From contig CAMZKT010000053.1 in the NCBI GenBank assembly GCA_947311435.1, positions 1-44,910 on the forward strand: a stretch of DNA of 44,910 nt. Direction: 5' to 3'. Shown here piece after piece: positions 812 to 29,130 of this stretch; within the stretch, counting starts at the first letter, position 1, and each line of letters begins with the position of its first letter. Below the pieces are notes generated by a model. That model ran no database searches, was not told the DNA's origin, and worked only from the letters and a program-made list of their open reading frames with translations. The stretch is from an uncultured Desulfocapsa sp. (GTDB taxonomy: Bacteria > Desulfobacterota > Desulfobulbia > Desulfobulbales > Desulfocapsaceae). A program made the position numbers and the translations under genes.

Positions 812-861
812 GACGAGATATGTTCAGCAATAATTGATCTCGTTTTTTTTTAAACAACATA

Positions 862-876: not shown

Positions 877-896
877 AGAACTCAGAAGGAGAAGTT

Positions 897-3015: not shown

Positions 3016-4160
3016 GTGAAGCCAAACCGTTAGGTGGCAGAATTTTTACTCCCACCGTTTTTGTTTGCCTGCTTTTTATTGGTGTAGCAGGATTTGTGCT
3101 CGTAAAGAGATTTATTTACGGCCTTGGACCGGTATCCAATATGAGTGACGGCTATCCATGGGGAATATGGATTGCCTATGATGTCGTGGTAGGTTCAGCC
3201 TTTGCCTGTGGTGGCTACGTTATGGCTCTTATGGTCTATGTGCTGAACAAGGGGCAGTATCATCCTCTGGTGAGACCAGCGCTTCTGGCCTCGGCTTTCG
3301 GTTATACTCTTGCCGGTGTTTCGGTATTTTTTGATATCGGCAGATACGCGCATGCCTATAATCTTTATCTGCCCTGGCAGATGAATGTGCATTCAGTCAT
3401 GTTTGAAGTTGCCATGTGTATCGGTACATACATTTTTGTGCTCTGGCTTGAGTTTACCCCTGCCTTTCTTGAAAGATGGAAACAAAAAGGGCTGAATAAA
3501 CTGCTGAATAAAGTAATATTTTTATTGATTGCACTTGGCGTACTTCTGCCCACAATGCATCAATCATCCCTTGGATCAATGATGATCCTTGCAGGATACA
3601 AGCTTGATCCTCTTTGGCAGACCCCCCTTCTTCCGTTGCTCTTTCTCGGAACCGCTCTGTTTATGGGCTTTGCTATGGTTATTTTTGAGGGCACTATTTC
3701 TTCTCGAGTCTATAATCTTGGTGATGAAACATCAATGTTTGCAAAAGTGTCCCGTATTCTCTATTGGGTTATTGCGGTGTGGATGATTGTTCGACTGCAT
3801 AACGTTTTTGTTAACGGCCATCTTGGAGATGCTTTTTCAGGGAGTTTTCTTGGAAATATGTTCCTGCTCGAGAATTTGTTTCTTGTCGTAGGGATGACTA
3901 TTATAGGCTCTTCCAAGTTTCGCAGTAGTGCCAGGATGCTTTTTATAGCTGCTGTTCTGATTCTGTGCGCAGGAGCCTTGTATCGTTTCAATGTGTATTT
4001 AATTGCTTTCAAACCTGGCGCAGGGTTCAGTTATTTTCCATCCTGGGGAGAGCAGATGGTTACCTATGCATTGATTGCCACCGAGATAGCTGCCTATACG
4101 TTTTTCGTGAAATACTTCCCGGTATTTGAAGTTCACGAACCAGTCGAATCTAATAGTTAA
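3012..4160 (+). CDS. hybB: Hydrogenase integral membrane subunit HybB (NrfD family)
   Basis: The 382-residue polytopic protein belongs to the NrfD/HybB family of heme-free quinone-interacting membrane subunits. About ten hydrophobic segments can be traced, starting with TVFVCLLFIGVAGFVLV and ending with YALIATEIAAYTFFVKYF. The family-typical region SDGYPWGIWIAYDVVVGSAF follows the first helix. In Hyb systems it passes electrons to menaquinone, and in E. coli HybB may also allow energy-driven H2 release (family knowledge). It overlaps hybA by 4 bp and is 11 bp from hybC, so it is part of one operon. Length and sequence appear complete. Confidence 0.94.
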   Translation: MSEAKPLGGRIFTPTVFVCLLFIGVAGFVLVKRFIYGLGPVSNMSDGYPWGIWIAYDVVVGSAFACGGYVMALMVYVLNKGQYHPLVRPALLASAFGYTLAGVSVFFDIGRYAHAYNLYLPWQMNVHSVMFEVAMCIGTYIFVLWLEFTPAFLERWKQKGLNKLLNKVIFLLIALGVLLPTMHQSSLGSMMILAGYKLDPLWQTPLLPLLFLGTALFMGFAMVIFEGTISSRVYNLGDETSMFAKVSRILYWVIAVWMIVRLHNVFVNGHLGDAFSGSFLGNMFLLENLFLVVGMTIIGSSKFRSSARMLFIAAVLILCAGALYRFNVYLIAFKPGAGFSYFPSWGEQMVTYALIATEIAAYTFFVKYFPVFEVHEPVESNS

Positions 4161-4171
4161 GGAGATATATA

Positions 4172-8564: not shown

Positions 8565-10955
8565 ATGGATGTTACGGCTTTAGATGGAAACATGGCATTA
8601 GTTCAAGGGCATTCTTCGGAGATCATCCATCTCCTAAGTACCGCCATATTGATCTATTGTGGGGTGAAAGCTCTTTATCATAAAGAGTTGCGAAAGGTAT
8701 TGATCTATGCCTTTGTTGGTATGGTCGTTGATGCCCGTACGCTATTGGATCTTGGTTCATCACAGGCAGTCCCCGCATTTCTTTCGCAGATCTTTGTTTT
8801 TTCAATCAGTATAGGGATGATGTATCTTGCTGTTAAGGCAATTTCAGCCAAAACCGGTAGTGACAATTTAGACGATCTTCAGGGGATAGGGAGAGTGATG
8901 CCAAAAGTTGCGATCCCCTTGGGCGCTGGGTTGTTCGCGATGATGGGTATGCCGCCTTTTGCCACATTTTTCAGTAAACTTCTTATGGTCTCTGCATTTA
9001 TTGATTCAGGCAAGATCGTGAGTTCGCTTATACAGGGTGGGGCTGAGATACTCTATTTTCTTGTTTTCTTACGTGTTTTGAAGATTATTTTTCTTCGACA
9101 GTATGAAGGTGAGGCCCGCACTGATTGCAGTAACGCAGTTTTGGTTCCTCTATACGTTTTACTTGTGTTCAATATAATTGGTGGTGTTTTTCCTGCTGTT
9201 GCTATCAAACCATTTGTAGGCTTAGCCAAAATGTTTGGGGCGGTATCTGTAGATGTCCCTCTTTTTAATCTTAGCTGGCCTCTTCCTGTGCTTTGCCTTA
9301 GCGTAGGGGCTCTCATTGTGTACTTTTATGGTCGTAAGTCCAATAAAGTCGCAGGTCTGATGGCCTCGGGATTTTGTGTGTTATCCATGCTTTTTCTCAC
9401 CGTTACCGATCGAAGCGGAGTTGGAAATTATGGTATAGGATTTGCTATCCTCATTCTTTTTATGGGCGCATTGCAGTTCTTTTATTCTGTAAGTTACATG
9501 GATCACTCTCATAAGCAGTATCGATTTTATACTTTTTTTATGCTTATGATAGCAGGCTTACTCGGAGTAAGTCTTACAGGGGATCTGTTTAGCATGTTCT
9601 TTTTCTGGGAGGTTATGAGTGGTTGGGTGCTTTACCTCGCACTTGTTCATGAAGAAGATGACTTTTCTATACAGGAAGCAAGCAAGTATTTCCTCTTTAA
9701 TTATTTAGGTGCTGTTTTTCTTACCATCGGCGTTCTTGTAATGTACAAAATCTCAGGTTCCTGGGCGTACGAGGGAATAGTTGAGAATTTTTCTTATACT
9801 CAGCCAGCTGCGATTGGTATAGCAATGCTTTCCTTGGGATTTTTAATGAAAGCTGCCCAACTTCCATTCCGTATCGATTTTCAGATGCATCCAAAACCTG
9901 CTCCAACGCCCATTAGTGGATATATTTCTTCTACAATGCTGAAAAGTGGGCCGTTTATGATGGTTAAAATATTTTTTATTGGTGCAGCAGGATATTCTGC
10001 CACCAGTTTTCTTCCTCTCGAAACAATCATGTATGTCAGTGCCTGGATAGGGGCGTTGACTATTGTTATGGCCGCGTCTTTTGCAATGCTGACGAACAGT
10101 ATGAAGAGATTACTTATCTACCATACAGTAAGCCAACTTGGTTATGTAGTTGTTGGTTGTGCACTTATGACAAGCTTTGGGCTTGCAGGAGGGTTACTCC
10201 ATTTCGCTAACCATATGTTTTTCAAAAATCTCCTCTTTCTCTGTGCTGGTGCGGTCTTTATTTCGACCTCCACAGATCGAATGGACGAATTAGGTGGTTT
10301 AGCCAAGAAAATGCCTGTTACATTTTTCTGTTTTATGATCGGCGTGTTTGCGATTTCCGGTGTACCGTTATTCAGTGGCTTTGTTTCCAAATGGATGATC
10401 TATCACGCTGTAATGGATAAAGGTTTTGTTGGTATTGCTGTCCTTTCCCTTTTTGGAAGTGTTTTGACTCTTGCTTCATTTATTAAATTTATGCATTCAG
10501 CATACCTTGGACAGATACAGGAAAAGGTGGAGAATGCGAAAGAAGCATCCTGGTACATGCTGGCCCCCATGTTGATTTTGACAGCACTCTGCGTTTTGCT
10601 CGGAATTTTTCCAAGTATTGCGCTTGTCCCAATCAATTCCATGTTGTCAGAGTTTAACCTTCAACCTTTGTCCGTAGGTGTAAATACAGTCACGCATGGG
10701 GCAGATTCCCTGAATATGTTGTATCTGACGGTTATCCTTCTTCTTGGCTGTGCAATGGTTGTCGCAGCATATTTTATGATGAAAACAAAAACCCGTTCGA
10801 CACATGTTTACGCCTGTGGAGCTGGGGATTTAACAGCAAAAGATTCTCATGTAGCGTCTGACAATTTCTATGAGGATTCGAAGGGCTTTATTAAAGGAAC
10901 TGTAAAGTTTATTAAAAAAATCTCAGGTATGAAGGGTGGTTATGTTGAGCGCTAG
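8565..10955 (+). CDS. cooM: CooM-like membrane subunit of group 4 hydrogenase (N-terminally short)
   Basis: The 796-residue integral membrane protein is built from antiporter-like (NuoL/NuoM/MrpD) modules that translocate ions in energy-converting hydrogenases. Residues from about 300 to 690 form a full module with the typical lysine helix and broken-helix region (MKAAQLPF, APTPISGYISSTMLKSGPF). Residues 1-170 cover only the second half of a first module, starting near its central broken helix (KVLIYAFVGMVV) and running through MGMPPFATFFSK. Known CooM proteins are about 1200 residues or more, so the front helices appear to be missing. The ATG has a fair Shine-Dalgarno (CAAGGACAG). It overlaps cooK by 14 bp. 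The order M-K-L-X-U-H matches the coo hydrogenase operon of Rhodospirillum. Confidence 0.8.
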   Translation: MDVTALDGNMALVQGHSSEIIHLLSTAILIYCGVKALYHKELRKVLIYAFVGMVVDARTLLDLGSSQAVPAFLSQIFVFSISIGMMYLAVKAISAKTGSDNLDDLQGIGRVMPKVAIPLGAGLFAMMGMPPFATFFSKLLMVSAFIDSGKIVSSLIQGGAEILYFLVFLRVLKIIFLRQYEGEARTDCSNAVLVPLYVLLVFNIIGGVFPAVAIKPFVGLAKMFGAVSVDVPLFNLSWPLPVLCLSVGALIVYFYGRKSNKVAGLMASGFCVLSMLFLTVTDRSGVGNYGIGFAILILFMGALQFFYSVSYMDHSHKQYRFYTFFMLMIAGLLGVSLTGDLFSMFFFWEVMSGWVLYLALVHEEDDFSIQEASKYFLFNYLGAVFLTIGVLVMYKISGSWAYEGIVENFSYTQPAAIGIAMLSLGFLMKAAQLPFRIDFQMHPKPAPTPISGYISSTMLKSGPFMMVKIFFIGAAGYSATSFLPLETIMYVSAWIGALTIVMAASFAMLTNSMKRLLIYHTVSQLGYVVVGCALMTSFGLAGGLLHFANHMFFKNLLFLCAGAVFISTSTDRMDELGGLAKKMPVTFFCFMIGVFAISGVPLFSGFVSKWMIYHAVMDKGFVGIAVLSLFGSVLTLASFIKFMHSAYLGQIQEKVENAKEASWYMLAPMLILTALCVLLGIFPSIALVPINSMLSEFNLQPLSVGVNTVTHGADSLNMLYLTVILLLGCAMVVAAYFMMKTKTRSTHVYACGAGDLTAKDSHVASDNFYEDSKGFIKGTVKFIKKISGMKGGYVER

Positions 10956-11895
10956 TGATATATTGACTTATCTTGTATTTCCCGGTGGACTGTTTGCTGT
11001 ACTTTTTGGCTTATTGTTGCTTGGCTTTGAACGAATAGCCGTTGCCAGATTTCAAGGACGTGTTGGTCCGCCTCTTTTACAAAACGTATTCGACGCCTTT
11101 AAGTTACGTGGTAAGGAAGTACTTATTCCAAAAGATGCTACCAATAAGATATTTTTCTGTATCGCGCCAGTGCTTGGATTTGTTGGAATGATGGCTGCCA
11201 TCTCTATTCTGCCCATCAGTGGTGTGTATGGTGGAACAGGAGCAAATAGTGACCTTATCGTTTTAATATATTTACTTGCTCTTCCTGCCGTGTCCAATGT
11301 GATGGGTGGAAGTGCATCTGGTTCCACGTATTCTGCGATATCGGTTTCGCGTGAGGTGGTCTTGATGTTCGCCTATGAGATTACCTTTATTATTGTTCTT
11401 TTTACGGTTGCCTTAAATGCAGGCGCAGGTGAGGGAGCAGTATTTTCACTGAAGGGTATCGTAGACTATCAAGTTGTTAACGGGTCTTTTATTGCAGATC
11501 CGAAAATGATTCCAGCCTTTCTTGGTTTCGTTATTTTTCTTCTCGCCACACTTGAGGTGCCCCCTTTTCACATCGCTGAGAATAGCGCAGACGTGATGAG
11601 TGGTTATCTTATGGAATATAGTGGTATGCCACTGGCTCTATTTGAGATGACTCATGCTTTGAAGCTCCTGGTTCTTATTACTGTATTACAAATATTTTTC
11701 ATGCCTGGAGTGGCAGGTGACAGTATTATCTTCAACCTATTCTGGTATCTTGTAAAATCTGTTGGAATAGTTGCCGTGATTTCTCTTATCCATGCTTCCT
11801 TGGCTAGTTTTAGGGTAGACCAGGCGTTGAAATTTCTCATGACTGTACCAATCGCGCTCTCACTTGTGAGCCTGTTTCTGGTCATATTCGCATAG
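10942..11895 (+). CDS. cooK: Group 4 hydrogenase membrane subunit, NuoH-like (CooK-like)
   Basis: The 317-residue protein has about eight hydrophobic segments and belongs to the NuoH/HycD/EchB family, which links the soluble Fe-S arm to the membrane arm. Family-typical stretches are ARFQGRVGPPLLQN in the first cytoplasmic loop, SREVVLMFAYE, and the acidic loop LATLEVPPFHIAENSADVMSGYLMEYSG (positions 187-215 or so), which is the usual quinone/charge-transfer loop region. I chose the ATG at 10942 over the GTG two codons upstream, because it follows GGGTGG. It overlaps the end of cooM and is followed by cooL after 9 bp. Confidence 0.9.
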   Translation: MLSASDILTYLVFPGGLFAVLFGLLLLGFERIAVARFQGRVGPPLLQNVFDAFKLRGKEVLIPKDATNKIFFCIAPVLGFVGMMAAISILPISGVYGGTGANSDLIVLIYLLALPAVSNVMGGSASGSTYSAISVSREVVLMFAYEITFIIVLFTVALNAGAGEGAVFSLKGIVDYQVVNGSFIADPKMIPAFLGFVIFLLATLEVPPFHIAENSADVMSGYLMEYSGMPLALFEMTHALKLLVLITVLQIFFMPGVAGDSIIFNLFWYLVKSVGIVAVISLIHASLASFRVDQALKFLMTVPIALSLVSLFLVIFA

Positions 11896-11904
11896 GAGTT
11901 TATT

Positions 11905-12345
11905 ATGTTATCAAAATTTGCCACCAGGTCACCCTGGTTGTTTAGAATTAATACGGGATCCTGCAATGGTTGTGATGTTGAGTTGGCAACAACGGCCATG
12001 ATTCCAAGATATGATGTCGAACGTCTGGGTTGTAAGTACATAGGATCACCTAAACATGCTGATATAGTACTTGTTACCGGTTCAATAACTGCAAGGTCAG
12101 AGCCTTATCTGAAACGTCTTTTGGAAGAAATTCCTGACCCGAAAGTTGTAGTTGCTATAGGCATCTGTCCCATAAGTGGAGGAGTTTTTAGAGACAGCTA
12201 TTCCATCAGAGGGCCTTTGGATAAATTTGTAGATGTTGATGTCAATGTCGCAGGCTGCCCGGTACGGCCACAGTCAATAATTGATGGTGTGGCTGAGGCT
12301 ATAGGGATCTGGAAAGAAAAAATAAAAAATTGGGAAGAGGAATAA
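11905..12345 (+). CDS. cooL: Group 4 hydrogenase small subunit, NuoB-like (CooL-like)
   Basis: The 146-residue product carries one [4Fe-4S] cluster, as in NuoB, EchC and CooL. Its ligands are seen in GSCNGCDVE (two cysteines), AIGICPISGG and VAGCPVRPQ. It has no signal peptide, so the enzyme faces the cytoplasm. It passes electrons between the ferredoxin-like subunits and the [NiFe] site of the large subunit. GGAG precedes the start by 7 bases and the next gene starts directly after its stop. The length is normal for the family. Confidence 0.92.
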   Translation: MLSKFATRSPWLFRINTGSCNGCDVELATTAMIPRYDVERLGCKYIGSPKHADIVLVTGSITARSEPYLKRLLEEIPDPKVVVAIGICPISGGVFRDSYSIRGPLDKFVDVDVNVAGCPVRPQSIIDGVAEAIGIWKEKIKNWEEE

Positions 12346-12346
12346 T

Positions 12347-12856
12347 ATGTCTGGTTTTTTTAAAATAGCAATCAGAAATCTTTTACAGGGACCCACGACT
12401 GATCCTTATCCTTTTGGCGAAACGTTTCTTCCCGATGAGTACCGTGGAGTAGTCGGATGGGATAAGGATACCTGTATTGGCTGTAACACATGTGAGCACG
12501 TCTGCCCTACTGGAGCGATTAAGGTTCGGGAGAAGGAAGATAAAAGTGGATTTACTTTTTCATATTGGATGAACACTTGTACTTTCTGTGGGAATTGTGC
12601 CCATTTTTGTCCAACAGGTGCCGTTGCTCAGACTACAAATTTTCATACTGCAACCGTACAGAAAGATAAATATAAAATGACTGTCCAAGGTGAGGTTTTA
12701 TATGTTCCCTGTACATCCTGCGGAAAACAGGTAAGGCCTTCGGTTAAAGAACTCCTGGAACATACCTATGGTGAGTTTGATGAGGAAAAGAGTGAGCAGA
12801 CAAAGGTTTGTCCTGAGTGCAGAAGAATGCAAAATTTTGAGAGGTTATATACATGA
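12347..12856 (+). CDS. cooX: Group 4 hydrogenase 2[4Fe-4S] subunit (CooX-like, NuoI family)
   Basis: The 169-residue product contains two classical [4Fe-4S] motifs, CIGCNTCEHVCPTG and CTFCGNCAHFCPTG, placed as in NuoI, HycF and CooX. A second cysteine group near the C-terminus (CTSCGKQ and CPECRR) looks like a small zinc-ribbon-like pair, which is also seen in some HycF-type proteins. It takes electrons from reduced ferredoxin and passes them to the NuoB-like subunit. The stop overlaps the start of the next gene (ATGA). Confidence 0.9.
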   Translation: MSGFFKIAIRNLLQGPTTDPYPFGETFLPDEYRGVVGWDKDTCIGCNTCEHVCPTGAIKVREKEDKSGFTFSYWMNTCTFCGNCAHFCPTGAVAQTTNFHTATVQKDKYKMTVQGEVLYVPCTSCGKQVRPSVKELLEHTYGEFDEEKSEQTKVCPECRRMQNFERLYT

Positions 12857-13383
12857 AAACGAACAAACAGGAGCTCGCTTCGACTCTTTTGTCAGAGCTG
12901 AAGCTCTATATAAATGCTGGGATTGCCAGTATGCATACCTTTTCCGGCCCCCTTGGTAATGAAGATATTTTTGTCAGACTTAACAATAAAGAAGATATAG
13001 CATCTGTTGCTACTATGGTTAAAAAGCATCAGGGAAGATGTGTTACCGTCACGCCTAACGGTGTGGAGGGTGGAGACGAGGTGGCCTACCATTTTTGCAT
13101 CGAAGGAGTAATGCTTAATGCAATTTCGTTTACCGATGACAAAACTGTTCCATCTATTACCCCGATATTAAAGAGTGCCGACTGGACAGAACGTGAAATG
13201 AATGATCTGTTTGCGATTAAGCCTGTTGGACACCCTAATCCGAAGCGACTCATACTCGATGAAAGTATAGCTGAGGGAGTCTTCAAAGAGTATGTCTCTC
13301 TTTCTGAAGCTATGGCCGGGGCCGCAACCTGTTCATTATGGGAAAACCTAAATGAAGCAAAACAAGGAGAAAGCCATGAGTAA
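12853..13383 (+). CDS. cooU: Group 4 hydrogenase NuoC-like subunit (CooU-like)
   Basis: The 176-residue product matches the NuoC 30-kDa family. The C-terminal half has the recognisable pattern PSITPILKSADWTEREMNDLFAI followed by GHPNPKRLIL, the signature region of this subunit (usually W-x-ER-E-x-x-D-x-x-G-I-x-F-x-G-HP). The N-terminal part is the less conserved alpha/beta domain. It has no cofactor; its role is structural, packing against the large subunit. It is coupled to cooX by a 4-bp overlap and overlaps the Shine-Dalgarno region of cooH. Confidence 0.88.
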   Translation: MKTNKQELASTLLSELKLYINAGIASMHTFSGPLGNEDIFVRLNNKEDIASVATMVKKHQGRCVTVTPNGVEGGDEVAYHFCIEGVMLNAISFTDDKTVPSITPILKSADWTEREMNDLFAIKPVGHPNPKRLILDESIAEGVFKEYVSLSEAMAGAATCSLWENLNEAKQGESHE

Positions 13384-14461
13384 AGCATATAAACTCCCCA
13401 TAGGGCCTGTCCACATTGCCTTGGAGGAGCCAGTCTATTTTAAAGTTCACCTTGAAGGTGAAACTATAGTTGATGTAGATATCCTCAGTGGGTTTGTGCA
13501 TCGTGGAATGGAAGCCTTGGTACTGCGTAAAAATTTTCTGCAAAACATGATTATTACAGAACGAACCTGCTCTTTATGTTCGAATAATCACCCCTTCACT
13601 TATATTATGGCGGTTGAAAAAATAGCTGGGATTGAGATACCCAAAAGGGCTGAGTATCTCCGGGTTATTGCTGATGAGATAAAACGAGCTGCTTCCCATC
13701 TTTTCACCATTGCTATGCAGGCGCATCTCATCGGCTTTCATTCTTTGATGACTCAAACCATGGAAACCAGAGAAATTCTTCAGGATGTGAAGGAAACAAT
13801 ATGGGGTAGCAGAATGGATTTGAGTGCCAATACCATTGGTGGCACAAAATATGACTTGGATGCTGCAAAAACCAAATACTTGTTTGATAAGCTTGAAGAA
13901 TTGAAAAAACCTCTTCGTGAATTATTTGAGATATTTAGGGAAAATAAGCTCGTTATGGCCAGGACAAAAGGGGTAGGGATGCTTCCAACCGAGGATGCGT
14001 TACGTTTAGGAGTTGTCGGGCCTACTGCCAGGGGCAGTAATGTGAACAATGATATCCGCGATATCTATCCATATGTTGCCTATAATAAACTGGATTGGAA
14101 TGTTGTCCTTGAAGAGGGCTGTGATGTCAGGTCGAGGACTTTGGTGAGACTTAGAGAAGCTGAGCAGGCAATCAGTCTTGTTGAACAATGCCTCAGGGAA
14201 ATGCCAGAAGGGCCCATAGCACTTAAGGGGTTGCCACGAATAGTTGCTGGAGAAGCTGTGGCCAGAACAGAAGCACCACGAGGTGAATTGTTCTATTATG
14301 TTAAATCAAATGGTACAGATAAGCCTGAAAGGTTGAAGTGGCGTGTACCCACATATATGCACTGGGAGGCTTTACGGGTGATGATGCCAGGAAACAAGAC
14401 AGCCGATACAGCATTGATTTTTAACAGCATTGATCCCTGTATCTCTTGCACGGAACGATAA
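13376..14461 (+). CDS. cooH: Group 4 [NiFe] hydrogenase large subunit (CooH-like)
   Basis: The 361-residue catalytic subunit belongs to the NuoD/HycE/CooH family. It keeps the [NiFe] cysteines that distinguish hydrogenases from complex I: RTCSLC near the N-terminus and DPCISC at the very end. The protein stops three residues after the last pair (TER), so there is no C-terminal extension to be cleaved, as known for CooH-type enzymes. The ATG at 13376 follows AAGGAGAAAGCC; an upstream in-frame start would lack this. An intact catalytic subunit argues that the complex can be active, whatever the state of cooM. Confidence 0.92.
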   Translation: MSKAYKLPIGPVHIALEEPVYFKVHLEGETIVDVDILSGFVHRGMEALVLRKNFLQNMIITERTCSLCSNNHPFTYIMAVEKIAGIEIPKRAEYLRVIADEIKRAASHLFTIAMQAHLIGFHSLMTQTMETREILQDVKETIWGSRMDLSANTIGGTKYDLDAAKTKYLFDKLEELKKPLRELFEIFRENKLVMARTKGVGMLPTEDALRLGVVGPTARGSNVNNDIRDIYPYVAYNKLDWNVVLEEGCDVRSRTLVRLREAEQAISLVEQCLREMPEGPIALKGLPRIVAGEAVARTEAPRGELFYYVKSNGTDKPERLKWRVPTYMHWEALRVMMPGNKTADTALIFNSIDPCISCTER

Positions 14462-14472
14462 GGAGTAATTTC

Positions 14473-15027
14473 ATGGAAAAATTAGTTCACAGTTTTGTTT
14501 TGTGCGATTCTAATGTTTGCGTTGGGTGTGGGATGTGTATGATTAAATGTTCCACCGGTCATTTTGGTATTACTAAAAAAGAAGCGAAAGTTGCAGGTAT
14601 TACGCTTATTCCACGGAATCATGTAATCAAGATAAAAGAAACAAAAACAAATGCTGTTATGCAGTGTATGCATTGCGAGGATACCCCTTGTGCCAATGCC
14701 TGTCCAATTGGTGTAATTTCTGTAGACAATGGTATTGTTCGAGTAAATGAAGAGGATTGCAGTGGATGTGGGACGTGTGAGATGGTTTGCCCTTATGGTG
14801 CCATAGAGGTTCATGAAGTAGAAAACCCGGTTACAGGTTTAAAGCGCATGACAGCCCTCAAGTGCGATCTGTGCTATGATAAAGAGACCCAGGCTTGCAT
14901 TGCTGGGTGCAAATTCAAGGCAATATCTCTGGTGACATGGGATGAGTTTCGTGAAAATGGTTATCGTCCCGCACCAACGCCACCTAAGGAAGAGCCGAAG
15001 AAAAAAGTCGCATCTTCATCAGCTTAA
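14473..15027 (+). CDS. cooF: Four-cluster ferredoxin-like electron carrier (CooF/HycB type)
   Basis: The 184-residue product has four [4Fe-4S] cysteine groups: CVGCGMCMIKC, CMHCEDTPCANACP, CSGCGTCEMVCP and CDLCYDKETQACIAGC. This is the layout of CooF, HycB and HydN, soluble carriers that link a dehydrogenase (CO or formate) to the group 4 hydrogenase. A lysine- and proline-rich tail follows. The start has AAGGAGTAATTTC and lies 11 bp after cooH, so it is in the same operon. In coo systems the next gene is the CO dehydrogenase; none is here, so the true electron donor is unknown. Confidence 0.8.
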   Translation: MEKLVHSFVLCDSNVCVGCGMCMIKCSTGHFGITKKEAKVAGITLIPRNHVIKIKETKTNAVMQCMHCEDTPCANACPIGVISVDNGIVRVNEEDCSGCGTCEMVCPYGAIEVHEVENPVTGLKRMTALKCDLCYDKETQACIAGCKFKAISLVTWDEFRENGYRPAPTPPKEEPKKKVASSSA

Positions 15028-16405: not shown

Positions 16406-16906
16406 ATGAAAGATACAATCGGAGTTGTAGGTGTAGGGAATACCATTTTACAGGATGAAGGTGCTGCAGTTCATCTGATAAAACGCTTTAAGGATCACTG
16501 GTGCCCTTGTTCCAATGTCGATTTTATTGGTGCAGAAACTGCCGGCATTGGTGTTGCAGATATTATAACAGAATATGATGCTGTTATTCTTCTGGATACC
16601 ATATTAACAAAAGAAGAACCAGGCTCAATCATTGTCAAAGAAAAAGATGAATTGGTAAAAAAAAACGGGTCATCCGTAACCGCCGGTCATGCATTAGGGC
16701 TTCGTCAAGCGATCGAATTTGCTGCCTTGACCGATAGCATACCTGAAAAGCTTATTTTGATAGGTATCGTACCTGCTGTCATACATTTTGGAGAAACACT
16801 TTCCAGGCAAGTGGAAGAAGCAATGGCATCTTATGAAATTGCAGTTATTCGACAACTTGCGATTTGGGGTGTTGAACTGAATAGAATCCAACAAGAAAAG
16901 GTTTAA
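16406..16906 (+). CDS. Hydrogenase maturation protease (group 3-type)
   Basis: The 166-residue product is of the HycI/HoxW/FrcD endopeptidase superfamily. GVGNTILQDEGAAVHL at the N-terminus contains the glutamate expected to touch nickel; D61-region LLDTILTKEEPGSI and a histidine in TAGHALGL are the other expected ligand regions. It cleaves the C-terminal tail of a hydrogenase large subunit. The closest processed substrate is the MvhA-like subunit in the same gene group, whose tail is 15 residues. It is followed after one base by the next gene, so it opens the operon of the group 3-like hydrogenase. Confidence 0.88.
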   Translation: MKDTIGVVGVGNTILQDEGAAVHLIKRFKDHWCPCSNVDFIGAETAGIGVADIITEYDAVILLDTILTKEEPGSIIVKEKDELVKKNGSSVTAGHALGLRQAIEFAALTDSIPEKLILIGIVPAVIHFGETLSRQVEEAMASYEIAVIRQLAIWGVELNRIQQEKV

Positions 16907-16907
16907 A

Positions 16908-17213
16908 ATGAGACAAGGTCACAAAGGGGATGAGGTTGAATTAATTAAAAACAGACTCTACCAGGGAGGAAAAATCTCTCAACTCTGGAAGATGTTTGTC
17001 GCAGCACAACTAACTGGAGAATTTTCTTTTTTGGGAAGAGAGCAGTCAACCGCCATTCGCCTTATGAACGGAAGGGTTAAGGATCTTACTTTCAGGGGGC
17101 GGCATATTACAATCACGGGCATGGCCGGATTGAACGCATTTAAAACTTTTATACGACAAGATGCGACCGTCCGGTTTTCTATCATGGTTACTGAAACAGA
17201 GGGGCAGGAATGA
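16908..17213 (+). CDS. Small DUF4388-like (PATAN-like) protein in hydrogenase operon
   Basis: The 101-residue product is not a standard hydrogenase component. Its pattern, LWKMFVAAQLTGEFSFLG, then AIRLMNGRVKDLTFRG, then GLNAFKTFIRQDATVRFSI, resembles the DUF4388/PATAN fold, in which a short helix, a 'TG.L.l' strand and an 'i.f..G.i..a' strand pair are followed by a final 'F.f' strand. That resemblance is weak and from pattern only. It has no cysteines, signal peptide or membrane segment. It starts 1 bp after the maturation protease and its stop overlaps the next start (ATGA), so it is tightly coupled to the electron-transfer subunit. It could be a regulatory or assembly factor. Confidence 0.6.
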   Translation: MRQGHKGDEVELIKNRLYQGGKISQLWKMFVAAQLTGEFSFLGREQSTAIRLMNGRVKDLTFRGRHITITGMAGLNAFKTFIRQDATVRFSIMVTETEGQE

Positions 17214-18682
17214 ATATTATCTTTTTGTCGAATGAAATAAAAGAAATGATAGACAAACCTGATACTGTTACCTCAATTGAGGGGGTGGATAAGGTTGTAC
17301 CCTTTGATCCTCCATTAACGATTGACAGGTGCAAGGTGATTGTCGATCAACAGGAGGACTTGTTTATTGTTGTGGCCAGAAACCCCCAGCAGTCTTCGTC
17401 GGTGCAACACACTTTTTTCCCGGTTGAGCTAGCCAATATGGGGACGAACCCTGGTCATGTAGGCTTTGTTGATTTAAATCATATTTTCCTTGCAAGTGCC
17501 AACAGTGAAGCAGCTGTCAACAGGTTACAAATTCATATTCGCTTAACGTTTGTTAAGCTCTCTCATACTAAAGATAACCCGAGAGAAATTATTAGTCCTC
17601 TGAAGAAAATATTTGTAGTCGGTTCGCCACAAGGAGAATCATTTATAGAAGACTTGCAAAAAAAAGGTGTCAAAATTAGCGGGTTGTGGACTGGCAGGGA
17701 ATTTGACCTTGATGGTATCCCGGTCGGTCTTTCGGGACTGCCGGGGAAATATACAATAACGCTACAACAGGAAAGTGGTGAGAAAATAACACATGAAGCA
17801 GGAGCGATGGTTGTTTTTAACGAAGGTCTTGATGACCAACAAAAGAAACATTTGCTAGATGGTTTTCTGTTGACTGTTAAAGACCATCGCCTGCATATTC
17901 AACCCACACATCTCCGTTTGTCACAAGGTATAAAAGTTGTCTATTCAGAAACGGAGTACAGACAAGTTGCTGACTTTTTCTGCTCGTTTCTGAGTTTGAG
18001 TAAAATTTCACATTTTGTTGAAGACCCACACATTGATCATGAAAAATGCGGCTTATGTGGTACCTGCGTAAAAACATGTTTGTTTCATGCTAGCACTGTG
18101 AGCTATTCTGGTTCCACTGGCGTTTCAGAAATTGATCCTGATTTTTGTGTCGGCTGTGGAAACTGTGTTACAGCCTGTCCAACCCAGGCCCGTGATCTTC
18201 CTGCATATTCCTATGATTTCTTTTCTTCTTCCTGGAAAGAATTACGTGAATTCCACGGAGGAACTGATGGCCTCAAAATCCTTGTTATCTATTGTGAATC
18301 CAATGGCCATGATGCCATAGCGTATCTCTCGGAGAATAAGATCAAGGTTCCATCATCCTGTCTGTTTTTCAGGATTCGTTGTGGAGCAAGAGTGGATACG
18401 CAGTTTGTTCCTGATAGTTTTCAGGCAGGTTTTGATGGTGTAGCGATTCTTGTCTGCTCCAGGGATGAGTGTAACAATATCGTTGGCAGTCTGGATCTTG
18501 AAAGACGTCTTAATCTTTACAGGAAGGTTATGCAGGCTACAGGAATCGAAACCGGCAGAATGCGTATTATGCCGGTGGCCTCTGATAAACTGGAGACCGT
18601 TGGTGAATCTCTCCAGCAGTTTGCTGATTTTCTCAACAGTGTGAAACAGGATAAACAACTATTCACTACCATGGCAACATAA
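17210..18682 (+). CDS. HdrA-like/MvhD fusion iron-sulfur protein with degenerate flavin domain
   Basis: The 490-residue product has three parts. Residues 1-215 look like the front of HdrA: FIVVARNP...NPGHVGFVDLNH...A.NRLQIHIRL resembles the HdrA 'vvAacSPr...glNpy...aniReqcswvh' region, and KKIFVVGSPQGE (from residue 132) followed by GKYTITLQQESGEK..HEAGAMVVFNEG resembles the start and end of the HdrA FAD domain, but the GxGxxG signature and the bulk of the flavin domain are missing. Residues about 275-330 hold two [4Fe-4S] motifs, CGLCGTCVKTC and CVGCGNCVTACP. Residues about 345-485 are an MvhD-type domain with cysteines (YCESN, PSSCLFFRIRCGARVD, CSRDECNN). It probably links the MvhGA-like hydrogenase to a partner. 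The family relation is inference from patterns. Confidence 0.7.
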   Translation: MNIIFLSNEIKEMIDKPDTVTSIEGVDKVVPFDPPLTIDRCKVIVDQQEDLFIVVARNPQQSSSVQHTFFPVELANMGTNPGHVGFVDLNHIFLASANSEAAVNRLQIHIRLTFVKLSHTKDNPREIISPLKKIFVVGSPQGESFIEDLQKKGVKISGLWTGREFDLDGIPVGLSGLPGKYTITLQQESGEKITHEAGAMVVFNEGLDDQQKKHLLDGFLLTVKDHRLHIQPTHLRLSQGIKVVYSETEYRQVADFFCSFLSLSKISHFVEDPHIDHEKCGLCGTCVKTCLFHASTVSYSGSTGVSEIDPDFCVGCGNCVTACPTQARDLPAYSYDFFSSSWKELREFHGGTDGLKILVIYCESNGHDAIAYLSENKIKVPSSCLFFRIRCGARVDTQFVPDSFQAGFDGVAILVCSRDECNNIVGSLDLERRLNLYRKVMQATGIETGRMRIMPVASDKLETVGESLQQFADFLNSVKQDKQLFTTMAT

Positions 18683-18755
18683 GCTTTGTTTTTCACAAAC
18701 GCTACTGAAGAGTATGAACAACGCCATCAATGCAACCCGATAAGTGAGGGAAATA

Positions 18756-19625
18756 ATGCCAGATAAACCAACAGTTGCCATCGGTCTTTTAAGTGGATGT
18801 TTCGGATGTCTTATGAGCCTTTTAGACATGGCAGATGATCTGCCAGATTTTCTGGATAAAGTAGAACTGCGCCGGACACCCTTCAATGATGTTAAGGAGA
18901 TTGAAGAAGTAAATATAGGAATACTTGAAGGAGCCGTTTCCACAGACGAAAATCTGGAACTCGTAAAAGAGATGAGGGAAAAATCGGAGATACTTATTTC
19001 TCTCGGAGCCTGTTCATGCTTTGGTGGAATCCCAGGTTTACGAAACTTTCATGACAGCACAGTTCTTAAAGAATCAATTTATGCCAATAAGGTTCCCGAT
19101 GATGAACTCCCGGCACTTCTTGATAAAGTAATTCCGGCATCACAGGTGGTGAAGGTTGATGTTGAAATTCCCGGCTGCCCACCAACCTCAAAAACGATTA
19201 AAGATGCTTTATATTCATTGCTTGATGGAAAGAAACCTGACAGATATAAAAAGAATTTGTGCGTGGAATGTCCCCGAACAAAACAAAAAATACTTACTCC
19301 TCAGAGAGGATTCCTTGCAGAAGGGGTGAGGTCAGTGATGGAGCTTGATTCCATCGATCCCAACACCTGTTTTCTGGAACAGGGAGTCCTCTGCATGGGG
19401 ATTGCAACTGCCGCAGGGTGTGCTGCCCGTTGCACACGGAATAATATTCCCTGCCGGGGATGTAATGGCCCGGTTCCTGGTGTCGCCAGTCAGGGGAATA
19501 AGGCCATTGATACTCTGGCTTCTCTGATTCCACCGGGAGCATTGATGTTTTTTGAAGATTGCGTTGGTATGGGCTATCGGTATACCGCAGCATATGACAC
19601 AACTCTCAAAGTGGAGAACAAATAA
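18756..19625 (+). CDS. Group 3-like [NiFe] hydrogenase small subunit (MvhG-like)
   Basis: The 289-residue product lacks a signal peptide, so it is cytoplasmic. Proximal cluster ligands are seen in SGCFGCLMSL, GACSCFGG and IPGCPPT. The C-terminal third is cysteine-rich (LCVECPRTK, CFLEQGVLCMG, GCAARCTRNNIPCRGCNGP), so it should bind further [4Fe-4S] clusters, as in MvhG-type subunits and unlike the short HoxY. It passes electrons from the [NiFe] site to the HdrA-like/MvhD protein encoded just upstream. The ATG at 18756 was chosen because the N-terminus then starts directly before the first beta strand of the family. It ends 1 bp before the large-subunit gene. Confidence 0.9.
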   Translation: MPDKPTVAIGLLSGCFGCLMSLLDMADDLPDFLDKVELRRTPFNDVKEIEEVNIGILEGAVSTDENLELVKEMREKSEILISLGACSCFGGIPGLRNFHDSTVLKESIYANKVPDDELPALLDKVIPASQVVKVDVEIPGCPPTSKTIKDALYSLLDGKKPDRYKKNLCVECPRTKQKILTPQRGFLAEGVRSVMELDSIDPNTCFLEQGVLCMGIATAAGCAARCTRNNIPCRGCNGPVPGVASQGNKAIDTLASLIPPGALMFFEDCVGMGYRYTAAYDTTLKVENK

Positions 19626-19626
19626 G

Positions 19627-21015
19627 ATGGCAAAGATTGTAATAAATCCAATCAGCCGGATAGAGGGTGATGGCAAGGTCAGCATATACCTTGACGACAA
19701 AGGGCGCGTTGACAAAGCCAGTTTTCAGATTCTGGAGTTCAGAGGGTTTGAAGAGTTTGTTAAAGGACGTCTTCTCTGGGAAATGCCACAGATAACCAGT
19801 AAAATTTGTGGTATCTGCCCCATCCCCCATCATCTGGCTGCAGTGAAGGCGGTAGAGGCAGCTCTGGGGGTGCAGGAAATTCCTCCCGTGGCTTTGAAGC
19901 TGCGTAAAATGCTTCTTGATGCTGCAAATATCCAGGACCATACACTTCATTTTCTCTATCTGGCATTTCCTGATTTTATTTATTCAAGTTCCACTCCACC
20001 GGAAAAACGGGGTATAACCGGCCTGCTTGCCGATAAGCCTGACCTTGTAAAGAAAGCAATATTTTTGCGAAAAAGCGGTGTGTTACTTGCAGAAAAAATT
20101 GCTGCTCATTCCATCTACCCGGTCACTCCCATTCCGGGTGGGATGAGCAGAGCGCTTCCTGCTCAGTGTGTGGGGGAGATGGTGTCCATGATGGAGCAAT
20201 CGCTGGTTTACGCACAAGAAATAGTAGGGTTGGCCTGGAAGGTCTCCAGCAGTCTTCCTGAAAAAATTGTAACACAAATGGAAAGCAAGTTTATGTGTCT
20301 TACTGCTGCGGACGGACAGGCTTCTCATTACGATGGACAGGTAAAAGTAATGGATCGTGACAGGCGCACCGTTCATGATTTCCGAGTGGCAGATTATCAG
20401 GAGTTTATCGAAGAAGAGATCAGTCGGGATACATGGAGTAAGTTTCCTTATCTTAAAAAACTAGGTACCCGTGACGGCATGTACAGGGTTGGCCCGCTTG
20501 CCCGCTGTAATGTTACCGAACATTTGCATACTCCCATTGCAGAGAAGTGGTTGCGGAAGCTCAAAACGTTGGCAGCCGATAAGCCATTGCAGTCGATCTT
20601 TTATTATCACATCTGTCGGTGCATTGAACTGATCCATCATATAGAGTCTGTTATCAATACACTCTCAGATCCGGAAATATGCAGCAAGGATGTCCGAATC
20701 CCGGTACAGAGAACTGCAGGTGAGGGGGTCGGGGCAGTGGAAGCAGCAAGAGGAACCCTCTTTCATCATTATCGTTGTCGTGCAAACGGAGAGGTCGAGT
20801 TTGCCAACATGATTGTACCCACAACGCACAATAACATGGCTTTGAACAGAACCGTCAAAGAGGTGGCATCCTTATATGTTAAAGATGGAAGTATTGGTGA
20901 AGAGGGGAAACTTCGTATTGAGATGGCGGTCCGATCTTATGATCCCTGTCTAAGTTGTGCTACCCATTCATGGAATACTCCCGAAGGTTTGAGCATCGAA
21001 ATAATTAAAAAATGA
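19627..21015 (+). CDS. Group 3-like [NiFe] hydrogenase large subunit (MvhA-like)
   Basis: The 462-residue catalytic subunit starts with INPISRIEGDGKVSIYL and carries both [NiFe] cysteine pairs: KICGIC (C61, C64) and DPCLSC (C441, C444), with the usual histidine (H447) at the cleavage point and a 15-residue tail after it. FRGFEEFVKGRLLWEMPQI before the first pair is typical for group 3 (Mvh/Hox) enzymes. No Tat signal is present in its small subunit, so the dimer is cytoplasmic. The tail implies cleavage by a maturation protease, most likely the one at 16406. Group 3c enzymes couple H2 to heterodisulfide-reductase-type partners. Confidence 0.92.
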   Translation: MAKIVINPISRIEGDGKVSIYLDDKGRVDKASFQILEFRGFEEFVKGRLLWEMPQITSKICGICPIPHHLAAVKAVEAALGVQEIPPVALKLRKMLLDAANIQDHTLHFLYLAFPDFIYSSSTPPEKRGITGLLADKPDLVKKAIFLRKSGVLLAEKIAAHSIYPVTPIPGGMSRALPAQCVGEMVSMMEQSLVYAQEIVGLAWKVSSSLPEKIVTQMESKFMCLTAADGQASHYDGQVKVMDRDRRTVHDFRVADYQEFIEEEISRDTWSKFPYLKKLGTRDGMYRVGPLARCNVTEHLHTPIAEKWLRKLKTLAADKPLQSIFYYHICRCIELIHHIESVINTLSDPEICSKDVRIPVQRTAGEGVGAVEAARGTLFHHYRCRANGEVEFANMIVPTTHNNMALNRTVKEVASLYVKDGSIGEEGKLRIEMAVRSYDPCLSCATHSWNTPEGLSIEIIKK

Positions 21016-21027: not shown

Positions 21028-21861
21028 ATGGATCTTGCAAATACCAAACAGCTGTATCGAGAGCATGTCGCTCATTTCCTGAAATACAGGCTTGGCAGTA
21101 AGTTGTCAAATCGTATTACAAATCATGTTCTTTCACTGGATCTCTGCAACACTGGGGATAGCCGTGAAGCCTTCAAAGAATTGCTTACGGCCACTGTTCA
21201 GTTTGCTGTTGACGATAGGTATGAGGTTCTTCCTCTGGTTTTTGATATGGAGGAACTGCTAAAGTTTGAAAACAACTTTCTTTCCATCTACGATGATGCA
21301 CAAAAAGAAGATGGAGTTGACTCTTTTGATGATATATTTGACTCACTGCTTGCAAAGGAATTAGGAGATATTTTAGGGCAGGAACTGGTTGACACGGTAA
21401 GAAAAGTGTTTATGAAAGCAGTACTGGCAATTCCTGAACAAACCATAAATACAAGATTTTTTACTGGTATGCATGCAGTATATACCTTTATTCCAGATGT
21501 CTGGAGCGAGCTTGAGTTTTCCGAAAAGGTGAAAAGTCTTTCAGAGTTACTTCCGAAAGAAGTAGCCGAAGAAGCGAGTGCTGAATCTGAAGAAGGGCTC
21601 TATGAAAAACTTGTTGAACAGATTGTCGTGGCAGATCTGGCCGATATTATGGGTCAGGGTATTGTTTTACAGACAGTTTTGAAAAATGCTCAAACGAAAA
21701 CAAGCGGTGTTTTTGTTGGAGACCTGGAACGCTTCACCGTTTTTTGTTCACATATTCTGGAGGATGATATGGTTACACAGTTATTTGATACCTTCTGGGT
21801 CGATGAGCGACGTAGCGTATGGAAGAAGGAAGCGGAATTGATGTGCCGGTATGGTTCCTGA
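21028..21861 (+). CDS. Unrecognised acidic protein at the end of the group 3-like hydrogenase operon
   Basis: I do not recognise this 277-residue protein. It is acidic and predicted to be mainly alpha-helical (for example YREHVAHFLKYRLGSKLSNRI, EELLKFENNFLSIYDDAQKE, EGLYEKLVEQIVVADLADI). It has only three widely separated cysteines, no signal peptide and no membrane segment. It starts 12 bp after the MvhA-like gene with GAGGAATTGCTGAG as ribosome binding site, on the same strand, so it is very likely part of the operon. It may be an assembly chaperone or a specific partner of this hydrogenase. Nothing in the sequence identifies a catalytic site. Confidence 0.7.
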   Translation: MDLANTKQLYREHVAHFLKYRLGSKLSNRITNHVLSLDLCNTGDSREAFKELLTATVQFAVDDRYEVLPLVFDMEELLKFENNFLSIYDDAQKEDGVDSFDDIFDSLLAKELGDILGQELVDTVRKVFMKAVLAIPEQTINTRFFTGMHAVYTFIPDVWSELEFSEKVKSLSELLPKEVAEEASAESEEGLYEKLVEQIVVADLADIMGQGIVLQTVLKNAQTKTSGVFVGDLERFTVFCSHILEDDMVTQLFDTFWVDERRSVWKKEAELMCRYGS

Positions 21862-27549: not shown

Positions 27550-27634
27550 AAAGAAGGCTTCAAGATATGATAATGTAAGGGTATCAAACAGAATTGCCGA
27601 TTGTCAAAAAAAATATGTCTGGTAAGCCTTCTTT
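27550..27634. promoter_or_regulatory. Widely spaced 11-bp inverted repeat in a divergent promoter region
   Basis: AAAGAAGGCTT (27550-27560) and AAGCCTTCTTT (27624-27634) are perfect inverted copies 63 bp apart. They sit between the divergent chemoreceptor and DAC-domain genes and could be paired operator sites for a common regulator, or foldback structure. No regulator gene is adjacent. Confidence 0.45.
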
Positions 27635-27681
27635 GTATAGTCCTTCCTGGAAAACTGAAGTTTGAACTCAAGGAGTTTGCT

Positions 27682-29130
27682 ATGAATGTACACAAATCAA
27701 GTGATGTTTTTGTTCGTCGTTGTGTCAGTGATATTCTCAATGGCCTGAGTGAAGGACTTTCGCATTTTTCAGGTTTTAGTCGATGTGCGGTTATTTATCG
27801 TATAACAAAGGACAGCCCGCTGATGATCTGTGATCCTCAAAACCTTCTTTTGGGGCATAAACCAAAGATAAAGAGAGTATTGGTTGAAGAGTCTTCAAGG
27901 ATGTTGGTTGGAACTGCGGAGCTTGATCGGGCGAAGGTCAACAGAATGTTTTCTGTCCGGGATCTTGAACTTACTGGAATCGTAGAGTATGGCGGCCAGT
28001 CCGCTGCAGTGTATTATCAGGTTTGGTTTACGGAACAGCACCCTGATCTTTGTTCCAAAGGCCCCGTGCATCGTTGGTTGGAGCATGCTGTGTGGTGCTT
28101 TTCCCATGATATTGCCAATGGAGAGGAAATGTACACTGGTATTGCAGGTGCTTTTTTGCGGGATTATTCTTTTCACGCTGTCCGGGATCATATAGTTGAT
28201 GAAATGAATATTCATCTGGGGCTGGATTCACAGATCCGTGTCTATCCTCTGCTTGATGCTGTGCTCGCTGTTTCACATACCCCTGAAGAGGGCGCATGGC
28301 CTTTTGGGGAGCTGGTGATTGTTGATCCACGGCTTCTTTACAGAGTAAAGTTTGTCGCAAGGTTTATGCAGGATGAACGGCCACAGCTCAAAAACAGCAA
28401 GCATGTCCGAAAACTTCTTCTTACCGTTGAACGGTCTGACCATAAACTGATTTCTGATGGGAAGGCTATTATTGGTATAGCAGAGAATGACTTGCCGAGC
28501 TTTGTGATCTGTGCTGACTTTCGCGGCCGGCATGGTTTTATGAAAATCAATGAAAAGAAGATATGTAGTTTTTCGGAGGGGAGATTCAGCTCCTCCACCA
28601 GACGGGCCCAGTTGGTTCAGGTGGAGGAAGCACTTTTGGACACATCTCTTCCCGCCAAAGAAAAGAGCAGCCTTTTCCAGATTGTTACCAGCCTTACACA
28701 TCATGCACAGCATAGGAAACATGGTTGTACGCTGGTTGTTGACCTCAATTATGAACCAGTGTACATGCCTGGCCAGAGGCTTGATCCACCCCTGGATTTA
28801 AGAAAAGCTGAGCTGCTTCAAATGAGCTCTGCATTGACCAAAGTTGATGGGGCCTTGCATATAGGAGCCGATCAACACCTCCATGGTTTTGCCTGTCTCC
28901 TCGATGGCCGAAGTATAATGGCGGAAGATCGTGCACGGGGTGCCCGTTATAATTCAGCACTGCGTTTTACGGCAGAACATGCCAATATCATTGTTGTTGT
29001 GGTCTCTTCAGATCGTCCTGCCTCCGTTATTCAGGGTGGAGTGGAGCGCAGTGGAATTTGCCACTGGCGGCCGGAAAGCGGCTGTGTTCTTGCTCCGGAA
29101 ATTCTACAGGAGTGGTGCTCCAAAGGATAG
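27682..29130 (+). CDS. DAC (DisA_N)-domain protein, putative diadenylate cyclase of non-canonical type
   Basis: The 482-residue product ends in a DAC-like domain (about residues 350-480). DGALHIG (D389) corresponds to the conserved DGA motif, and RGARYNSAL (R419-R422-Y423) stands in place of the canonical RHRAA motif; IIVVVVSSDRPASVIQGG matches the final 'IVVSEE.G.I.....G' strand region. The rest, residues 1-350, is of unknown fold with no membrane segments, so it differs from CdaA, CdaS and DisA. I chose the ATG at 27682 with CAAGGAG six bases upstream. If active, it makes c-di-AMP; the altered motif makes this uncertain. It converges on the histidine kinase gene with 76 bp between. Confidence 0.65.
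   Translation: MNVHKSSDVFVRRCVSDILNGLSEGLSHFSGFSRCAVIYRITKDSPLMICDPQNLLLGHKPKIKRVLVEESSRMLVGTAELDRAKVNRMFSVRDLELTGIVEYGGQSAAVYYQVWFTEQHPDLCSKGPVHRWLEHAVWCFSHDIANGEEMYTGIAGAFLRDYSFHAVRDHIVDEMNIHLGLDSQIRVYPLLDAVLAVSHTPEEGAWPFGELVIVDPRLLYRVKFVARFMQDERPQLKNSKHVRKLLLTVERSDHKLISDGKAIIGIAENDLPSFVICADFRGRHGFMKINEKKICSFSEGRFSSSTRRAQLVQVEEALLDTSLPAKEKSSLFQIVTSLTHHAQHRKHGCTLVVDLNYEPVYMPGQRLDPPLDLRKAELLQMSSALTKVDGALHIGADQHLHGFACLLDGRSIMAEDRARGARYNSALRFTAEHANIIVVVVSSDRPASVIQGGVERSGICHWRPESGCVLAPEILQEWCSKG

Follow-up and report, generated by a model that had tools for sequence, protein, structure and literature searches.

A shortened HdrA-MvhD fusion protein with a predicted loss of the flavin site in a [NiFe] hydrogenase operon of an uncultured Desulfocapsa

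We studied a gene for an HdrA-like protein fused to an MvhD domain in a stretch of contig CAMZKT010000053.1 (GenBank assembly GCA_947311435.1, an uncultured Desulfocapsa sp.); "the window" refers here to this whole stretch, at its full length of 44,910 nt. The fusion gene lies between genes for a hydrogenase maturation protease and a 101-aa protein on one side and genes for the two subunits of a [NiFe] hydrogenase and a 277-aa protein on the other (Table 1), all in one direction and with small gaps or overlaps. The start of the large-subunit gene was set at the ATG at position 19627, the listed open reading frame opening at a TTG (19552).

Table 1. The fusion gene, its parts, and the other genes of the operon (positions in the window; aa, amino acids; +, forward strand)
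Feature	Position	Strand	Basis or remark
Fusion open reading frame	17210-18682	+	490 aa, ATG start
Residues 1-131, HdrA N-terminal-domain fold without cluster cysteines	17210..17602	+	hhalign, Cys columns
Residues 132-271, what is left of the thioredoxin-reductase-like flavin adenine dinucleotide (FAD) domain of HdrA, in reduced form	17603..18022	+	Element order of the model, fold matches, motif, length
GSPQGE, residues 138-143, at the GxGxxG position	17621..17638	+	Sequence and alignment
Residues 272-345, HdrA-type C-terminal ferredoxin domain	18023..18244	+	Pfam Fer4, NF040770, eight Cys
Residues 346-490, MvhD/FlpD domain, likely [2Fe-2S]	18245..18679	+	PF02662, 9sw2_D, Cys pattern
Hydrogenase maturation protease (HycI/HyaD type)	16406..16906	+	PF01750, E 2.3e-16; TIGR00072 over cut-off
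101-aa protein, function unassigned, 4-base overlap with the fusion start	16908..17213	+	Relatives in L012, L013, L038
Group-3-type [NiFe] hydrogenase small subunit (MvhG/VhuG-like)	18744..19625	+	PF01058, E 1.1e-26
[NiFe] hydrogenase large subunit (MvhA/VhuA-like)	19627..21015	+	PF00374, E 1.5e-33
277-aa all-helical protein, last operon gene in all four loci reaching there	21028..21861	+	Model

The C-terminal part of the fusion protein was assigned with Pfam and NCBIfam models. Fer4 models covered approximately residues 274-330, where two CxxCxxCxxxC motifs (C280-C290 and C313-C323) hold eight cysteines that are invariant in the four full-length members of the family, as in the C-terminal ferredoxin domain of HdrA. 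The FlpD/MvhD model (PF02662) matched residues 357-475 (E 4.7e-22), with 78.7 bits for the window protein, 71.9 for the protein of locus L021, and 65.4 for that of L011, all above the gathering cut-off of 22.3, and the MvhD chain 9sw2_D also matched the window protein (E 1.2e-10). A C-terminally fused MvhD is the arrangement of type Ia HdrA. Four cysteines of this region (residues 362, 391, 416, and 421), invariant in 4/4 full-length members, align with cysteines of MvhD, the last cysteine of the CCxxC motif being absent, and we infer that the domain likely holds a [2Fe-2S] cluster. The NCBIfam model of HdrA2 (NF040770) aligned only at profile positions 571-774 of 777, that is, over the C-terminal ferredoxin and MvhD, and its score of 100.3 bits fell short of the curated cut-off of 1100. 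Residues 1-271 matched no Pfam or NCBIfam model, and no Pyr_redox or other FAD-domain model of Pfam reached E ≤1 anywhere in the protein.

The origin of residues 1-271 was examined by profile comparison. A profile of the four-member alignment over these residues was compared by hhalign with 24 HdrA proteins of the phylum, and the two aligned with an E value of 2.2e-5 (one comparison), a probability of 76.4, and a score of 47.9; the reversed family profile scored 17.8, and 100 column shuffles gave a mean of 16.4 and a maximum of 26.3. The alignment was collinear, joining family positions 37-192 with HdrA positions 57-245; beginning in the N-terminal domain, it took in the first Rossmann strands and reached the beta-meander. 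Residues 1-131 alone scored 35.2 (maximum of 60 column shuffles, 19.3). The 24 HdrA had been picked from 30 loci as having at least 640 aa and matching the GxGxxG pattern; the presence of the motif in 24/24 is therefore circular by selection and was not used. Among the six that were dropped, L053 (GGGISG) and L064 (GGGIAG) have the motif, and in L045, L046, L050, and L069 (<640 aa) no such region was found.

An AlphaFold2 model of residues 1-271, for which the alignment contained five family sequences (one of them a fragment) and no HdrA, pointed in the same direction. The best of five models (predicted local distance difference test [pLDDT], 75.5; predicted template modeling score [pTM], 0.59) has, after the N-terminal domain, a strand at 133-137, a helix at 144-151, a strand at 155-160, a three-strand meander at 170-197, two further strands at 199-203 and 241-244, and a helix at 247-261, an order suggestive of a thioredoxin-reductase-type FAD domain minus its inserted second domain. 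In a Foldseek search of the PDB, all seven matches at E ≤1e-3 were HdrA (5odh, 5odi, 8rvy, 5odc, 7bkb, 8rvu, and 7bkd), with E values from 5.7e-8 (5odh, the best) to 6.3e-6 and a probability of 1.00, followed by an eighth, dihydrolipoyl dehydrogenase, at E 6.7e-3 and a probability of 0.20. The predicted model thus identifies HdrA clearly, though the superposition is loose, and residues 1-131 have the HdrA N-terminal-domain fold by their own hhalign score and by these HdrA-only, loosely superposed matches. Since the profile comparison and the family-only fold model each single out HdrA, an origin from HdrA is supported.

Part of what the family has lost belongs to the FAD domain. The GxGxxG position reads GSPQGE, GEPAEE, GDILDN, and GQPPDK in the four full-length members, degenerate in every one, and the acidic residue that ends strand 2 of HdrA has no counterpart in three of them. 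From this position to the first cysteine of the C-terminal ferredoxin the members have 142-145 aa, compared with 424-450 aa in the 24 HdrA and 167-181 aa in 20 HdrL-like proteins (described below). In the HdrA of M. thermolithotrophicus (5odc_A), E356 and K409, which a survey of archaeal HdrA names as FAD stabilizing (PMC12054007), are found inside a stretch of ca. 205 residues between a strand ending at G329 and a strand ending at G539. The equivalent stretch of the window protein, from the ATG strand to the FLAG strand, is only 37 residues long (204-240), and by alignment, as distinct from superposition, it has no counterpart of either residue.

Cysteines have been lost as well. Twenty-five cysteine columns are conserved in 80% or more of the 24 HdrA; of these, the family retains the eight of the C-terminal ferredoxin. 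The four N-terminal columns, present in 23/24 HdrA, have no family counterpart, no cysteine within residues 1-271 is common to more than two of the four members, and the family has also lost the inserted ferredoxin of HdrA and its CVGSR-near cluster. Judged by these features, the window protein is predicted to be without flavin. A preliminary description of the locus, drawn from the sequence, had proposed that a protein of HdrA origin in a hydrogenase operon kept the front segment, the two [4Fe-4S] motifs, and MvhD while its FAD domain was reduced to a degenerate stub. These points agree with our results: the Pfam and NCBIfam matches, the cysteines shared by 4/4 members, and the HdrA-like N-terminal region for the parts kept; the motif and the motif-to-ferredoxin distance for the stub; the profile score and the fold matches, among which no unrelated N-terminal fold was seen, for the origin; and the adjoining small-subunit, large-subunit, and maturation protease genes for the operon.

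The fusion family is rare. A search with residues 1-265 found it in 3 of 56 near genomes, the window's own included, and a three-row profile found it in 4 of the 257 genomes of the order (the window's own genome and those designated G004, G011, and G071). When the same profile was run on 395 genomes sampled evenly across the phylum, it gave the window's own genome and four weak matches (E 3.3e-5 to 6.9e-4), three of them HdrA-type (a 563-aa HdrA, a 1119-aa HdrA/GltD-type protein, and an HdrA beside a hydrogenase large subunit) and one a PAS kinase. A single-protein scan of genome contigs yielded one relative, 70% identical (locus L012, contig JAJRQL010000078.1 of Deltaproteobacteria bacterium isolate Dive100_bin10.55). 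The four full-length members have 486-491 aa; across four genomes and two families, size and architecture hardly vary. For the window compared with L012, its nearest relative, the ratio of nonsynonymous to synonymous changes (pN/pS) was 0.23 overall, with synonymous sites near or at saturation, and by part it was 0.25 (residues 1-131), 0.31 (132-271), 0.16 (272-345), and 0.17 (346-490). Under such constraint, the fusion gene does not resemble a decaying pseudogene.

The surroundings of the gene are conserved as well, and each member locus of sufficient length has hydrogenase genes beside the fusion. The order protease, 101-aa protein, and fusion recurs in the window, L012, L013, and the fragment L038, and the order fusion, small subunit, large subunit, and 277-aa protein in the window, L012, L013, and L037; the L037 contig showed neither a protease nor a 101-aa gene upstream of the fusion. 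G071 has two different fusion copies, one complete in its operon (L037, contig C146) and one cut by a contig end (L038, contig C350), the latter behind the protease and 101-aa genes.

Both hydrogenase subunits are homologs of MvhA and MvhG. The small subunit matched the VhuG model NF045875 (E 9.4e-63) and the large subunit the VhuA model NF041785 (E 2.4e-105), each under the curated cut-off, and the large subunit carries the L1 and L2 nickel-ligand motifs KICGIC and DPCLSC. In L012, the large-subunit gene (3564-4970) has a TGA at the last nickel-motif cysteine (DPCLS-TGA-ATH, compared with DPCLSCATH in the window), and from this reading it may encode a selenocysteine [NiFeSe] version. In quick trees of 43 large (MvhA) and 42 small (MvhG) subunits, whose rows were the MvhA relatives with fetched regions out of 123 matching genomes, the family (three rows) formed one group, with Shimodaira-Hasegawa-like approximate likelihood ratio test (SH-aLRT) values of 100 and 99. 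The split between the family plus the HdrA-linked hydrogenases and the rest had values of 96 (MvhA) and 75 (MvhG); since the trees are unrooted, the family is placed only between these two sets. Among the nine HdrA-linked rows, L162 was grouped by its place in a first tree, there being no HdrA in its fetched stretch.

The 101-aa protein matched no Pfam or NCBIfam family at cut-off. The 277-aa protein, modeled from four sequences (pLDDT, 78.4; pTM, 0.43), had no PDB fold match at E ≤0.001 and a best phmmer E value of 0.46, so it gives no hint of an electron acceptor. Elsewhere in the window, positions 834-21861 hold three different [NiFe] hydrogenase sets within 21 kb, the other two being, in our reading of the groups, a group-1-type set with NrfD and an FeS subunit (834-5875) and a group-4-type set with complex-I-like membrane subunits (8565-15027), the large subunit of which keeps CSLC and CISC. 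Farther along, positions 27601-29130 encode a protein that combines a DisA/diadenylate-cyclase-type domain with the sensor domains DACND and DACNH.

Taken together, we consider it probable, although by no means assured, that the fusion protein acts as a non-bifurcating electron conduit, with H2 at one end and a one-electron partner, in the simplest case ferredoxin, at the other. In this reading, an HdrA-MvhD fusion has been shortened by loss of its catalytic core (the FAD site, the inserted ferredoxin, the CVGSR-near cluster, and the N-terminal cluster), and what remains is the electron-entry arm, made up of the N-terminal-domain fold, a small Rossmann remnant as a spacer, the 2x[4Fe-4S] ferredoxin domain, and MvhD. 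The protein would be a third subunit of the adjacent [NiFe] hydrogenase, and electrons would move between H2, the large subunit, the small subunit, MvhD, and the ferredoxin domain, where they would be exchanged with a one-electron partner (a soluble ferredoxin or some reductase) with no bifurcation. Given that the FAD site and the exit clusters are gone, electrons must leave or enter at the MvhD/2x[4Fe-4S] ferredoxin domain, and this confinement favors a non-bifurcating conduit. The HdrA ancestry, the deletions, the conserved cysteines, and the operon are supported by computation; from them we infer the cofactors, the partner, and the sequence and direction of electron transfer. At low H2, the transfer from reduced ferredoxin to H2 runs downhill; the opposite transfer, from H2 to ferredoxin, needs high H2.

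Several observations weigh against this interpretation. Residues 131-271 alone scored 27.9 against HdrA, barely over the maximum of 60 shuffles (26.1), and because this score is unconvincing, the assignment of the middle part rests on collinearity and fold. The profile of the four members over residues 1-271 found no chain at E ≤10 among PDB sequences, the remaining four AlphaFold2 models had pLDDT values of only 57.2-70.8, and the superpositions on HdrA had template modeling scores (by query) of 0.38-0.49, root mean square deviations of 6.0-16.5, and 10-15% identity. In the protein of L021, an aspartate stands close to where HdrA has its acidic residue after strand 2, and the two FAD-stabilizing residues are not universal in HdrA itself, K409 being absent in 61 and E356 in 87 of 401 archaeal HdrA in the survey (PMC12054007). 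No acceptor gene was recognized in the operon. The current model, as the source presents it, gives the C-terminal HdrA ferredoxin the role of a shuttle cluster supplied with electrons by FAD (PMC12350162); since FAD is the electron source there, a linear MvhD-to-ferredoxin route is an assumption.

The same cryo-electron microscopy work brings in the alternative that we regard as the strongest, yet rather unlikely: that an asymmetric HdrA heterodimer is formed with the protein as its flavin-less half, whose arm docks on a separate FAD-bearing HdrA, bifurcation taking place in trans. The donor arm described there consists of an MvhD-type subunit with the N- and C-terminal HdrA domains, and because the presumed electron acceptor is FAD in the other HdrA protomer (PMC12350162), a flavin-bearing HdrA encoded elsewhere could bifurcate in trans. 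Asymmetric HdrA pairs with complementary losses have been proposed in ANME (anaerobic methanotrophic) archaea (PMC9012536), but the N-terminal-cluster cysteines used by complementing pairs are missing in the family. Candidate partners exist, given that HdrA matches that include the FAD region occur elsewhere in the window's genome and that G004 and G011 each have a second locus with HdrB-like, HdrA, MvhD, MvhG, and MvhA frames (HdrA is split into two frames there, and MvhA of G011 lies in three pieces); however, flavin-bearing loci already encode MvhD. In these two genomes, then, the flavin-less hydrogenase is an addition and not a replacement. Nearer to the fusion, no second HdrA above the ferredoxin level was found in the scanned loci (the window, L013, L037, and L038), and the HdrB-type (PF02754) matches of the member genomes lie on other contigs, HdrC not having been searched for.

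The window's genome is 88.84% complete. In the 14 kb read on contig C3, the second MvhA of this genome is without an HdrA; the stretches read at the HdrA locus of contig C7 contain neither MvhG nor MvhA. The HdrA genes on C7 (L017:3859-7347; genome G000) have an in-frame TGA, and the C7 genes possibly encode selenocysteine versions of HdrA and MvhD. The prospect of bifurcation in trans also divides two statements of the preliminary description. Its claim that the protein cannot bifurcate in the usual manner is valid for this polypeptide, from which the FAD core is gone, but does not extend to the system, where a flavin-bearing partner could bifurcate in trans; and of its conduit evolved from a bifurcating enzyme, the HdrA ancestry and the core deletions stand, while the conduit role is our best reading only.

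An unusual mode of binding, by which the Rossmann remnant would still hold FAD or some other nucleotide and the protein would be a simple flavoprotein, appears improbable. The model keeps the Rossmann-like order strand-helix-strand, beta-meander, and strand, and the aspartate of L021 lies near the end of strand 2, but GxGxxG is found in none of the four members, 37 residues take the place of the ca. 205 of 5odc_A, and no FAD-domain model matched at E ≤1. Even less credit is due to an unrelated scaffold that was fused to the ferredoxin and MvhD domains: the missing family match and the low identity and loose superposition would suit it, but two independent lines, profile and fold, lead to HdrA, as do three of the four weak matches outside the family, with the PAS kinase as the fourth. 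A pseudogene or an assembly artifact of a normal HdrA-MvhD gene can practically be dismissed, since, draft genome as this is (134 contigs, incomplete), near-equal length and architecture recur in four genomes of two families, the pN/pS ratio is low, and the window copy has no stops.

Among the known systems closest to the window protein is type Ia HdrA, such as HdrA2 of Methanosarcina acetivorans. Both have the C-terminal 2x[4Fe-4S] ferredoxin followed by a fused MvhD, and the N-terminal-domain fold and the Rossmann remnant come in the same order, but the family has no FAD module, inserted ferredoxin, CVGSR-near cluster, or N-terminal-cluster cysteines, and 490 aa stand against the 777 profile positions of HdrA2. 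Since the defining features of HdrA fail, the protein, HdrA-derived as it is, should not be filed as HdrA. QmoB, the HdrA-MvhD-type subunit of the Qmo complex, has a fused MvhD with a similarly reduced cysteine pattern. In the window's genome, a protein that we take to be QmoB-like, by its gene layout beside a QmoC-like protein, is missing the last CCxxC cysteine as the family is, but it keeps GGGIAG and matches Pyr_redox_2, which the family does not. In a 12-row tree of the ferredoxin and MvhD region, the single QmoB-like row was nearest to the family (SH-aLRT, 90), the family branch being 3.48 changes per column long, and an origin of the family from QmoB instead of HdrA2 is a candidate reading of this tree.

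The Mvh/Vhu group 3c [NiFe] hydrogenases have, as does the window operon, MvhA- and MvhG-like subunits with an MvhD partner, but the window subunits do not reach the VhuA and VhuG cut-offs and appear as a separate deep lineage in the unrooted trees. Unlike in the Mvh-Hdr complex, the partner has no FAD core, and no HdrB-type gene is present on the member contigs. In surveys of HdrA, 1,152 archaeal sequences were divided into 28 classes in four types by their thioredoxin reductase domains (PMC12054007), and all HdrA in the set of another appeared to keep the residues for FAD (PMC9012536). In the parts of the open-access PubMed Central literature that we consulted, we found no HdrA described as lacking FAD.

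A shortened HdrA module was also found in a second setting, in proteins that resemble HdrL of Desulfobacterium autotrophicum, a heterodisulfide reductase/glutamate synthase fusion encoded beside mvhD (PMC2702500). We call them HdrL-like by architecture and not by comparison with named HdrL sequences. L040 (1961-5320; 1119 aa), the only one examined whole, has a GltD-like Pyr_redox_2 match at 247-538, so that a GltD/NfnB-like flavin domain is in the same chain, which is not the case in the window protein. Its C terminus has the HdrA N-terminal domain, a short Rossmann part, and a ferredoxin, and a separate MvhD-like frame, read by eye, follows behind it, whereas MvhD is fused in the family. A search with the L040 module in 198 genomes of the phylum gave near-full-length matches in 22 (L073-L094; frames of 767-1321 aa; the match in L093 covers 5-229 only) and also matched ordinary HdrA, for 166/198 genomes altogether. 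The module makes up the C-terminal 420 aa of these proteins. Twenty of the 22 loci were used, L076 and L093 being dropped for length.

By sequence profile, the HdrL-like module clearly belongs to HdrA, with an hhalign E value of 1.7e-33 and a score of 259. It shares with the family the HdrA N-terminal domain, the shortened Rossmann part, and the C-terminal ferredoxin, but keeps the N-terminal cysteines in 20/20, which the family does not. GxGxxG is lost in 18/20 (L079 and L080 keep GGGDIG). In a Pfam scan of ten modules, seven gave no match to an FAD- or NAD-Rossmann family at E ≤0.1, and L040, L074, and L081 had Pyr_redox-type matches that stayed under the cut-offs (13.1-21 bits); because of these three, the loss of flavin is on less firm ground here than in the fusion family. 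The family matched the C-terminal part of the 20 HdrL-like proteins with E 1.1e-6 and a score of 53.9 (maximum of 100 shuffles, 21.8; reversed, 18.1), and this score, better than that to HdrA, may reflect a closer common origin. A tentative extension, which we would not call likely, is that flavin-less HdrA modules are a recurrent class of plug-in donor arms that feed ferredoxin or the flavin of another protein, the partner deciding on bifurcation; the bifurcating core would then have been discarded in at least two settings of the phylum, the HdrL-like C terminus and the hydrogenase subunit.

HdrA in a genome is commonly read as a sign of flavin-based electron bifurcation. If the conduit reading is true, the combination of an HdrA-like protein, MvhD, and a hydrogenase would not imply bifurcation. 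The family would also be a natural construct of the donor arm on its own, in which the shuttle role proposed for the C-terminal ferredoxin could be tested without FAD.

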